The position numbers were made by a program, and so were the translations under genes. This document shows, one piece after another, positions 49,957 to 54,199 of a stretch of DNA of 54,199 nt. Origin of the DNA: Pirellulales bacterium (GTDB lineage: Bacteria; Planctomycetota; Planctomycetia; Pirellulales; S012-138); assembly GCA_028066245.1 (NCBI GenBank), contig JALCBR010000018.1, positions 1 to 54,199 on the forward strand. Reading direction: 5' to 3'. The stretch's first letter is position 1; the number at the start of each line of letters is the position of its first letter. A model generated the notes under the pieces. That model searched no databases and was not told where the DNA came from. It was given only the letters and a program-made list of their open reading frames with translations.

Positions 49957-52050
49957 CTAATTCCCCAGCTCGTTTACCAGCTCCTTCGCTCCGTAAATCT
50001 TGGTCAGCGCCTCCTTGATGCCGGCGGAATGAACGCTGACCGCCCGGGCGACTTCATCTGTATAGGCAAAACCCAACACCAACGATTGGATGTTGCCGTC
50101 AAAGATGATGCCGACAACCTCTCCTTGGCGATTGATGACAGGACTGCCGGAGTTTCCGCCGATGATGTCCGCTGTACAGACAAAGTTGAACGGCGTATCA
50201 AGGTTGAGCTTATCCTTGTTTTCCATCCAACTCTTGGGTGGAGCAAAGGGAGCCTCGAAGTTGTGGTCGGCCGCGTGCTGATAAGTACCACCGATTTTTG
50301 TGAAAGGGGCGACCTGCTGGCCGCCAAGCTCATACCCTTTGACTTCGCCAAAAGCCAGTCGCAACGTGAATGTCGCGTCGGGATAAACGGAATCACCATA
50401 CGCGGCAAACTGCGCCTCCGCGATCTTGGCGTACGCTTGCTCCTGCGGTTCGATGACCTTTTCCTCGTACACTTTGCGGACAGCACGGGCGCGGGAATCA
50501 ACCAGCTTGGCCAGCAAAATCAGCGGATCGGTTGAGTTCTCAATCGCCTGCTTGCCCCCTTCGCGGAGGCTTCGTCGGTAGGCAACATCAAACAACCGCG
50601 TCCCGTCAATGAGCTGCGCCGCGCGATCTGTTGGCGACATACCTCCGAGAACCTCTTGGACGAAGGGATTATCGCCGCCGGCAATTTCCATCAAGTAGCT
50701 CAAGGAATCGGCCAGCTCGACCTTCTCAAGATCGGAGTAGAGAGGCGCCTCAGAAAACAACGCCTGCTCCAAGGAGGGAATCCCGGCGTCCGCGTACTCT
50801 CGCAGGCGCTGTGCGTTGGGAAGTTGACTTTCATCCGCCAGGCGCACCAGCGTACGGGCGATGTCGAACGTACGAGAGTTGAATGCGCGGCCTTGTTCAT
50901 AAAGCGTGTAGTCATCGCGAATGGTTAACAGCACGCTGAGCGTCTCTTTGATTTGAGACCAAGGGTCGCCAATCGTGGCGCTGAGTTCCGCGTTTGAGCG
51001 GACATGGCTCCTCAATGAATCTTCCGCCTCCTGCTTGGCCAACATCACGGACGGGCTTTGCAGTCCAGCCAAACCTCCCAAGCGCGCCTTGCGACTATTC
51101 TGCATGCCAAACAGGTCGTCGCGCGCCTGACGGGCGTTCTCCGCGCTTTCGTTCGAGTAGATGTTCAGCATCACCTCATACCGACGCAGCAGGTTGAGAA
51201 CATCCGGCAGAGACACATCGCGGAGATATTTCAAGTGATCGACCGTGTACATGCGGTCCGTGCTGCCCGGGTTGCCGGAGACAAAGACCAGTTCGCCCGG
51301 TTCCGCTCCGGCTTCACTCCAACTGAGGTAATGCTCAATCTTGACGGGCTTGTCGTCTTCGTAGACACGGAAAAACGCGACATCCAGGCACCAACGGGGA
51401 TACTCAAAGTTATCGGGATCACCGCCGAAGAAGGCGATGTCCTGCTCAGGCGCGAACACCAATCGCACGTCTGTGTATTTCTTGTACCGATACAGGTGGT
51501 AGCGACCGCCTTGGTACAGGGTGATCACGTCGCTCCGCAGGCCGGTCTTCTCAAGAGATTCCTGCTCGATGGTATTCATCGCGGCACGGCGAGCCTGCTG
51601 GGCCGCGGCGGCGGACATCCCCTCTTTCACGGCTGCGTTGACCTGGGCGGTCACATCCTCCGTGCTTTGCAGCACATTGAGTTCCATATCCAGGCATTTG
51701 AGTTCCTCATCACGCGTGCGCGCGTGAAATCCATCTTTGAGCAAATCGTGCTCGGCCGTGCTTAGCTTTTGCAGCGCGTCCGCGCCCACGTGATGGTTGG
51801 TCATGACCAGGCCGTTGGAAGAAACGAACGAACCTGACCCGCCGACGTTGAAACGGACGGACGCTCGTTGAACGTGCTCCAGCCATTCTTTCGTGGGCGT
51901 AAAGTTGTATTTCTCCTTGAGCAACTTGACGGGCGGGTTGGAAAACAGCCACATCCCTTCGTCAGTGGATGCCGTCACGGACGGGTTGCCGTCCAAGGCG
52001 AGAACCGACACGGCCAACAATGCGATAACCAAGATCAAGCGGCGAAACAT
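49957..52050 (-). CDS. S46 family dipeptidyl-peptidase (DPP7/DPP11-like)
   Basis: This is an exported serine exopeptidase that removes dipeptides from peptide N-termini. 697 residues from ATG 52050, preceded by GAGG at 6 nt; an ATG two codons upstream overlaps that ribosome-binding site and is less likely. The signal peptide is RRLILVIALLAVSVLALDG. S46 motifs are GMWLFSNPP, TNHHVGADALQKLS with the catalytic His (86 or 87), GGDPDNFEYPRWCLDVAFFRV with the catalytic Asp, and GGNSGSPVINRQGEVVGIIFDGN with the nucleophile Ser. The residue after IIFD is Gly, as in DPP7 (hydrophobic P1), not Arg as in DPP11. The same-strand redox selenoprotein gene lies upstream. Confidence 0.93.
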   Translation of the reverse strand: MFRRLILVIALLAVSVLALDGNPSVTASTDEGMWLFSNPPVKLLKEKYNFTPTKEWLEHVQRASVRFNVGGSGSFVSSNGLVMTNHHVGADALQKLSTAEHDLLKDGFHARTRDEELKCLDMELNVLQSTEDVTAQVNAAVKEGMSAAAAQQARRAAMNTIEQESLEKTGLRSDVITLYQGGRYHLYRYKKYTDVRLVFAPEQDIAFFGGDPDNFEYPRWCLDVAFFRVYEDDKPVKIEHYLSWSEAGAEPGELVFVSGNPGSTDRMYTVDHLKYLRDVSLPDVLNLLRRYEVMLNIYSNESAENARQARDDLFGMQNSRKARLGGLAGLQSPSVMLAKQEAEDSLRSHVRSNAELSATIGDPWSQIKETLSVLLTIRDDYTLYEQGRAFNSRTFDIARTLVRLADESQLPNAQRLREYADAGIPSLEQALFSEAPLYSDLEKVELADSLSYLMEIAGGDNPFVQEVLGGMSPTDRAAQLIDGTRLFDVAYRRSLREGGKQAIENSTDPLILLAKLVDSRARAVRKVYEEKVIEPQEQAYAKIAEAQFAAYGDSVYPDATFTLRLAFGEVKGYELGGQQVAPFTKIGGTYQHAADHNFEAPFAPPKSWMENKDKLNLDTPFNFVCTADIIGGNSGSPVINRQGEVVGIIFDGNIQSLVLGFAYTDEVARAVSVHSAGIKEALTKIYGAKELVNELGN

Positions 52051-52346
52051 AGTCATCCTCAGGCAAAAGGGGAGTGGCTCGGCAGCGCACTTCAAGCGGC
52101 ACGAGAATCCATTTGTGCGCCCGACATGATCGGCGATTTGCGGTCATTTTGGCAAGTCTCGGCGCCAAGAATCTCGCTGAGTGTTTACGAAGGAGCCGGC
52201 AACGCGACAAGCTCAGCGCGAGCGGGGCGATGTAGAGATGCACCAATGCAGCGCCACAGCGCACCATTTCGACACGCGTGGCCACATCAAGTTGAGACTT
52301 GCTTGAACGTGTTGTTCAACCGTCGCGCGGTGGTCTCAAACAACAA
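52051..52346 (-). other. spacer between selenoprotein and S46 genes
   Basis: About 300 bp with no ORF I trust. It presumably holds the S46 promoter. No clear terminator is seen after the selenoprotein gene. Confidence 0.4.
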
Positions 52347-53849
52347 TCAACGGTTGCGGTACTTAGGCGGCTTGATCTCCACGCTGACATCCTGCCGCAA
52401 GAATTGGCAGACGCCGCCGAGATCTTCGCACACATTGTAAAGCGCGAAAGCCGACAGCTTGACCGGCGCAGTGATGGGTTTGTCACTGCGAATTTCGACG
52501 CTCAACCGGCGGACTTCGTTGGTTTCCGCCGCGTCACCTTGTGGCGCTTCCAACAATTGCTGGGTCACCTTCCAGCCTTCGGGAGGATCAATCCACAGCC
52601 GCATGGGTTCCGCTTCGTTGTTCCAATGGGCTTTCAGTAACTGAGCTGGGGTAAACTTAAAATGGATTGTGGCGACAACGCCCTGACGGTCTGACGTGGA
52701 GACGACGGTCGCTTCGGTGGCAATCAAGCCGGCCGTGTCGCGCAGAATCTTCGCGTCAGGATCGGGATTCGTCGCGGAAGCCTGTTCGCCAAATTGACGG
52801 GCCGGCCGCGCAATTTCCGCAGGTGAAAGAGGAGCCCGCAGGGCAATTGGTTCTTCGCCACGAGCGGAAACGTCCGCCTGCGCCGTTTCCACCCAGTCAT
52901 AAAATGGATACGGCTTGATCAACCGCGGACCATACTGCTGAATCCTGCGCCGCCAGATATATTGGTTGGGTTCTTCCGCCAGTGCCGAATTCCAGAAATC
53001 GATCGCCTGTTGAAAGTCGCTCGACTGGCCGCGTGGTGTCTCGTAACGAGCGCGGTGCGCCACGCCGAGACGGAAGCGTGTCAACGGGCGTGGCCAGAGT
53101 TGTTCCGAAAGCTCGTACGTGGCGATCGCCTTGTCATCGACGTTTTCTTCCGACCAAAGCATGAGGCCATCGGCATAGCCCCGCGCGATGTTGGCAGCAC
53201 GCTGCTTTCCAACATCAGCGACCAGCGCGTCTGTCGCCGCTTGAGATTCAAAGTGTTTCGCGAAATCTTGCCAAGCGTCGATATCGGCAGTGAACGCCGG
53301 CTCAACCTCGGCGGTTGCGTCGTCAGCGAACTCTTTGTTCAAAAACTCATCCGCAAACGTCCGGGCGTTTGCACGTGTGGATCGAACAATGCCGTGTTCG
53401 TCGATGGCCACAAACATCGGCACAGCCGCCGTCTCGATGACATTGATGGGATCGTGCAGAATTGGCCATTGCAACTGCTGCCATTGCGCGTACAACCGCG
53501 TGCGGTCCGGGTGCTGCTCTTGCACCACACCCAACATGACCAACTGACCGGATTCAACAGCTTCCTTCATCGCAGCGTGCCAGACCGGCACGTGACGTCG
53601 GCAGCCCGCTCACCAACTGGCGAAGTGGATCAGCAGCACCTTTTTGCCGCGATAGTCCGAAAGTGAAACCGGTGTCCCGTCCGCCGTGTTGGGCAGCGTG
53701 AAGTCCGGATGTCGTTGGCCAACCCGCGGGCGATACGGACGCTTCGCGCCAACTTGTTGAGCGATGGCTTCTTCTGCAACGCTTCCTGAGGTCAACGTCG
53801 CGACCAAAATCGCCACCGTGATGGCGCACCGTGAAATGGAGGAGTTCAT
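52347..53849 (-). CDS. thioredoxin-like selenoprotein with UxxC redox motif (in-frame TGA read as selenocysteine)
   Basis: The minus strand reads as one frame of 500 residues if the TGA at 53610-53612 is decoded. Start ATG 53849 (an ATG four codons upstream is possible) gives a signal peptide (SRCAITVAILVATLTSGSVA). The redoxin fold follows: GQRHPDFTLPNTADGTPVSL, then VLLIHFASW, TGA (residue 80), AGCRRHVPVW. The TGA takes the place of the first Cys of a WCxxC motif, making Sec80-Ala-Gly-Cys83. The fold continues after the TGA in the same frame (VMLGVVQEQHP, the cis-Pro VPMFVAIDEHGIVR). A C-terminal region of about 300 residues contains a helical part and a beta-rich part ending in EIKPPKYRNR. 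A SECIS-like hairpin lies directly downstream of the TGA. A pseudogene or base error is the alternative. Confidence 0.82.
53576..53592 (-). promoter_or_regulatory. SECIS-like hairpin for selenocysteine insertion
   Basis: On the minus strand, CGTGCC, a GGTCT loop and GGCACG form a perfect 6-bp stem with a 5-nt loop. It starts 17 nt after the TGA, and the loop begins 23 nt after it. Bacterial SECIS elements lie immediately 3' of the UGA with a G(G)U-containing apical loop; the E. coli fdhF element also shows GGUCU in its loop. Extra lower-stem pairing is possible but not clear by eye. Confidence 0.7.
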
Positions 53850-54199
53850 GCAGGTTCTCATGAGTGGCAAGACGGAGACTTGAATCGAAGGCGAGCGGTG
53901 CGGGTGCATTGTAGCACGCCGGAGGAATGCTGTGCGTAATCGTCGTCACACTGGTGCCCCCCTGTGGGGGCAGGCATGAACCCGCGGCTGAGGCTGGTGC
54001 AATGATCCCAGAGACTTCGATCGTGCAAACTTGGCGTCAACGATCGAATCACGAAGTTGCGCTTGCTGGCTCCGAGACTTGATGCAGATACGGCGTCGCA
54101 TACTTACCAGGCATTAGAGCACCTGTCCGATTGCGGTTCCGTTCGCCCAGACGGACGCGGTCAAGTCATCCTGAGCTGGTGGCCCACACCCACGCTCTC
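53850..54199. other. gene-free right end of the window
   Basis: About 350 bp upstream of the selenoprotein gene. Short open frames are present but look noncoding, and no RNA or repeat is recognised. The promoter of the selenoprotein gene should be here. The window may end in the middle of an intergenic region. Confidence 0.4.

Follow-up and report, generated by a model that had tools for sequence, protein, structure and literature searches.

The Interrupted Gene

The locus considered here raises the question of whether a TGA codon at the active site of a predicted redoxin gene terminates translation or encodes selenocysteine (Sec) and, if the latter, what the resulting enzyme does. Within the window, by which is meant the whole 54,199-nucleotide stretch of DNA analysed, the minus strand carries a single 500-codon frame running from 53849 to 52347 and closed by a TGA at 52349..52347, the sole interruption of which is the TGA at 53612..53610 (residue 80, FASW-U-AGC; Table 1). 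From the ATG at 53849, 79 residues (...LIHFASW) precede this codon and 420 (AGCRRHVPVW...) follow it with no shift of frame, although the start codon is not certain because an alternative in-frame ATG lies upstream, at 53909. At the base composition of the window, an open run of 420 codons past the TGA has a chance probability of approximately 2e-7. A single AhpC-TSA/Redoxin domain (Pfam; residues 43-138, E 1.3e-14) spans the codon, and homologue pairs compared over the codons following the TGA yield dN/dS values of 0.11-0.28, indicative of purifying selection. A preliminary description of this DNA had read the upstream frame as ending at HFASW-TGA and the downstream frame as continuing AGCRRHVPVW unshifted, both halves belonging to one redoxin fold; the frame and the domain recovered here are the same. 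Immediately downstream of the gene, at 49957-52095 on the minus strand, lies a gene for a peptidase of family S46 (PF10459, 687 bits), and no gene neighbour is conserved among homologues beyond three close relatives; no conserved neighbour hints at a substrate.

Table 1. Features of the selenoprotein locus, with positions in the window
Feature	Position	Strand	Remarks
Whole selenoprotein gene	52347..53849	minus	500 residues, predicted Sec at position 80
Signal-peptide-like N-terminus	53775..53849	minus	residues ~1-25, hydrophobic ITVAILVATL; sequence prediction only
TlpA/ResA-like thioredoxin (AhpC-TSA/Redoxin) domain	53340..53723	minus	residues ~43-170
In-frame TGA	53610..53612	minus	predicted selenocysteine 80, first residue of UxxC
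Cys83	53601..53603	minus	putative resolving cysteine of UxxC; invariant, 27/27
SECIS-like hairpin	53575..53591	minus	core stem GTGCC-GGTCT-GGCAC, extended by a flanking C-G pair
Helical TPR-like linker	52860..53282	minus	residues ~190-330
C-terminal beta-sandwich domain	52350..52772	minus	residues 360-500, HWNNEA motif, weakly DsbD-alpha-like
Second invariant cysteine pair	52407..52430	minus	C474-x6-C481 (VCEDLGGVC), 27/27

Conservation of the TGA Codon

A scan of GTDB genomes returned 29 loci, 25 of which are family members covering the site in question; one further locus came from a relative (G029). In all 25 covering homologues, as well as in G029, TGA occupies exactly the equivalent of codon 80. 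These homologues derive from the Planctomycetota, Acidobacteriota, Verrucomicrobiota, Gemmatimonadota, and Armatimonadota, and in a phylogenetic tree they group by phylum beyond chance, with the window protein placed among planctomycete sequences. Their terminal stop codons vary, being TAG in 16 of 25 cases, TAA in four, and TGA in five.

A second search, of 392 genomes from the phylum of the window, employed a profile of the C-terminal half of the protein only and located the family in 42 genomes. The codon was read at 30 loci, leaving 12 genomes unread at this position, and all 30 of the fetched loci carry TGA; the locus of the window is one of these, and at least one other had been seen before (L097, apparently from the same genome as L076). 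Since only the C-terminal half served as the query, this search cannot have favored Sec over cysteine forms. A cysteine form of the family was found neither among the 25 GTDB homologues, nor in G029, nor at the 30 loci of the phylum-wide search; outside the Planctomycetota, the search for cysteine forms was confined to the peptide patterns of the GTDB scan. The expectation that close homologues would bear either TGA or cysteine at residue 80 is accordingly borne out for TGA and not for cysteine, which appears at the aligned column solely in other redoxins of the wider superfamily (27 hits). The family is thus present in at least five bacterial phyla, and by its codons every copy examined is a predicted Sec form and none a cysteine form. 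Separately, one locus (L090, on contig C166 of genome G032) holds pieces of the C-terminal half of the family in two different frames and, for that reason, is perhaps a decayed or frameshifted copy; it lies near a short gene encoding a deiodinase-like Sec protein (SYTUPPF).

Standard annotation would take the TGA at codon 80 for a true stop, whether owing to a sequencing error, to decay into a pseudogene, or to the presence of two consecutive genes, the first for a protein of 79 residues, and a GTG at 53591 could indeed start a downstream open reading frame. Such a reading is very improbable given that the TGA is kept in all covered homologues across five phyla, that both sides of the codon are under purifying selection, that one domain crosses it, and that Sec machinery is both encoded in the genome and associated with the gene (see below). 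Sequencing error, and with it an underlying TGC or TGT at 53610-53612, is rejected because each independent genome with coverage of the position has TGA there. Likewise, the pseudogene and the true stop are rejected on the basis of the conserved TGA and the purifying selection acting after it, and homologues continue past codon 80 rather than ending there.

Selenocysteine Machinery and a SECIS-Like Hairpin

The assembly to which the window belongs, as contig C14, spans 4.94 Mb and is 97.5% complete. The preliminary description had proposed a search of this genome for selA, selB, selC, and selD, and all four are present: selA (contig C97, 549 bits), selB (contig C46, 397 bits), and selD (contig C8, 293 bits) each score above the curated cut-off, and a tRNA-Sec (selC) with the anticodon tca (UCA) resides on contig C63. 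The selD match (G000:C8:131408-132358) sits in an 842-residue open frame far exceeding the length of SelD alone, which suggests a fusion. Among the 392 genomes of the phylum, 41 of the 42 that carry the gene have selB, compared with 195 of the 350 that lack it (Fisher p 5e-9, a value for which related genomes are not independent). In addition, selB was detected in 21 of the 24 genomes from which the GTDB loci derive, selA is present in 38 of 41 genomes, and in one genome (G356) the gene, selA, and selB all lie within ~6 kb of a single contig.

Known bacterial SECIS elements occupy a position matching that of a hairpin found just past the TGA of the window gene. This hairpin (CGTGCC-GGTCT-GGCACG) lies immediately downstream of the codon and has a small apical loop containing G; 23 nt separate the TGA from the loop, which starts 24 nt after it. 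Throughout the family, the 28-nt stretch at the SECIS position is more stable than synonymous-codon shuffles of itself (summed z -5.8, 0/400), a value uncorrected for relatedness and obtained with a stretch picked after a wider, 45-nt one had been tried; the folding energy of the whole 45 nt is not distinctive (mean z -0.3). All 27 members use GTG for Val87, which falls in the stem and is the most codon-biased of 171 columns. Base-pair covariation is sparse: the main stem displays no excess of it, and a single compensatory change (G-C to A-U) was seen in one planctomycete subgroup, whose stem is shifted and 7 bp long. No RNA consensus fold common to the family emerged, as two subgroups place the hairpin in different registers.

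The proposal that this gene encodes a selenoprotein is therefore sustained by the conserved TGA, the Sec machinery, the hairpin, purifying selection, and the co-occurrence of selB. Judged from sequence, the apparent stop codon is almost certainly a selenocysteine codon at the active site of a redox enzyme with a predicted export signal, and insertion of Sec at codon 80 in particular can be predicted with very high confidence. The UGA would be read as Sec by means of tRNA-Sec, SelB, and the hairpin just downstream.

A Probable Exported Thioredoxin-Fold Enzyme

Export from the cytoplasm, as suggested by the preliminary description, is highly probable for the predicted product: the window protein begins with a signal-like sequence, with possible cleavage predicted after SVA, and signal-like N-termini are seen in most homologues, 21 of 26 members passing a simple hydrophobicity cut at their predicted starts. 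In an AlphaFold2 model (mean pLDDT 86.7), the protein consists of a thioredoxin-fold domain, a helical region, and a C-terminal beta-sandwich, and the closest solved structures to the first of these are of the ResA/TlpA type. U80, C83, C474, and C481 are all invariant, a tryptophan directly precedes U80, and Ala77 stands three residues before U in all 27 members. With its thioredoxin fold, its W-C(U)-x-x-C site, and its predicted export signal, the protein would fall among the TlpA/ResA oxidoreductases.

The peroxidatic site of peroxiredoxins (AhpC/TSA) has the form PxxxT/SxxC. Since AhpC-TSA is the top Pfam match and peroxiredoxins figure among the known Sec redoxins (PMC13188914), the protein could instead be an exported seleno-peroxidase, reducing peroxide or another oxidant on an AhpC/TSA-like domain. 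This possibility is rather unlikely, however, as Ala77 takes the place of the peroxiredoxin Thr/Ser in 27 of 27 members, the site reads W-U-x-x-C as in TlpA/ResA, and peroxiredoxins rank below ResA/TlpA-type proteins among the structural matches. An exported thiol-disulfide oxidoreductase is the likeliest predicted function, and thiol-disulfide rather than peroxide chemistry is moderately favored. The grounds are the fold, the W-U-x-x-C site, and the lack of the peroxiredoxin Thr/Ser, along with the signal sequence for export. In such an enzyme Sec80 would act as the nucleophile together with Cys83, reducing disulfides or similarly oxidised substrates through a selenenylsulfide intermediate.

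The C-Terminal Extension and a Possible Electron Relay

The analysis confirms the C-terminal extension noted in the preliminary description; it contains an invariant cysteine pair of its own (C474, C481) and is one of the family's defining parts. The helical region preceding the beta-sandwich is called TPR by Pfam in 26 of 27 members and holds the invariant block NxYIWRRR...GPR..KPY.FY.W. The beta-sandwich itself finds no match among PDB sequences, and none of the NCBIfam models fits the C-terminal half. Its weak resemblance to the N-terminal domain of DsbD appears in Pfam for five of 27 members (best E 0.026, below significance), in Foldseek against nDsbD of N. meningitidis (probability 0.97 but E 7e-3), and in hhalign, where cysteine aligns with cysteine in a match that is not significant. 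Like the DsbD N-terminal domain (PF11412), it is a beta-sandwich with a close cysteine pair near its C-terminal end; unlike that domain, it has C-x6-C spacing and the HWNNEA motif, and the sequence and structure matches between the two remain below significance. HWNNEA is not known to be a feature of DsbD.

In two other genomes the same HWNN plus C-x6-C signature recurs outside the family: in G003 (L091) a deiodinase-like Sec protein (FGCLTUPPF) is followed by a domain bearing it, and in G004 (L096) the same arrangement is indicated by its C-terminal part. Recurrence of the domain behind a Sec deiodinase-like domain suggests a common function alongside Sec redox domains. Together with the invariance of C474 and C481, it underlies the proposal that this pair may relay electrons to Sec80-Cys83, in the way that the DsbD N-terminal domain supplies its partners in the periplasm; the electrons might in turn come from a membrane DsbD. 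The genome does encode a DsbD, which has its own N-terminal domains (contig C116). The relay is proposed tentatively, and a role for the cysteines as a structural disulfide, in a domain that only binds a substrate or partner and transfers no electrons, has close to an even prospect: the similarity to the DsbD N-terminal domain is weak, and the most strongly conserved block, HWNNEA, lies apart from the cysteines in sequence, whereas neither cysteine varies among the 27 members and the domain is found behind a Sec deiodinase-like domain elsewhere.

Taken as a whole, the explanation we consider likely is that of an exported Sec thiol-disulfide oxidoreductase in which the C-terminal cysteine pair would serve as a relay. 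Broader still, and less likely than not, is the idea of a Sec-only exported family carrying its own relay, built from a UxxC domain, a TPR-like arm, and a C-x6-C beta-sandwich, with this relay reused behind deiodinase-like domains.

Relationship to Known Selenoproteins

Bacterial redoxins with Sec in a UxxC site are an established class (PMC1088965, PMC2398784, PMC13188914), and selenoproteins have been reported from planctomycetes (PMC4807772). With the Sec redoxins and the peroxiredoxin-like and thiol-disulfide isomerase-like UxxC proteins (PF08534, PF00578, cd02966), the present family shares a bacterial origin, the thioredoxin fold, Sec at the first position of UxxC, and a SECIS-like hairpin after the TGA. 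It differs in that many cysteine forms of the known UxxC redoxins have been described, whereas none was found here, and in having, besides the TPR-like linker, a C-terminal domain in which a second cysteine pair is invariant. Similarly, the fold, the predicted exported location, the tryptophan before the N-terminal catalytic residue, and the xxC spacing are common to the window protein and the TlpA/ResA oxidoreductases, from which it is set apart by Sec in place of cysteine and by ~320 extra residues. The nearest NCBIfam model is NF041054 (ResA-like WAxxUGC motif-containing protein), whose members are likewise ResA-like Sec proteins in which a helical region follows the redoxin domain; the window protein, however, reaches 60 bits where 300 are required, its active site is UxxC rather than UGC, and the C-terminal parts differ.

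No description of the three-domain family was found in the literature, a search with motif strings yielded no relevant paper, and no NCBIfam model fits, though the published catch-all entry 'Redoxin UxxC' ('Redoxin family protein'), whose example sequence is HEU0032618.1, may include it. The family is clearly real, and the lack of cysteine forms and the extra cysteine-pair domain make it moderately surprising. Because TGA read as a stop splits the gene at its active site, and because no NCBIfam model fits, the family is probably mis-annotated widely. It offers a clean case in which to ask for what reason an exported enzyme retains selenium, and whether its reductant is a domain fused to it.

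Exported Sec redoxins seem to be numerous in the source genome. It has four additional redoxin genes in which an in-frame TGA falls at the active site (L093, L094, and L095, on contigs C156, C48, and C57), the sites reading WASWUGC, SASWUPYC, WGDWUPPC, and WGDWUGPC. The WASWUGC gene, on C156, is NF041054-like and continues, as judged by eye, into an in-frame DUF1080-like stretch.
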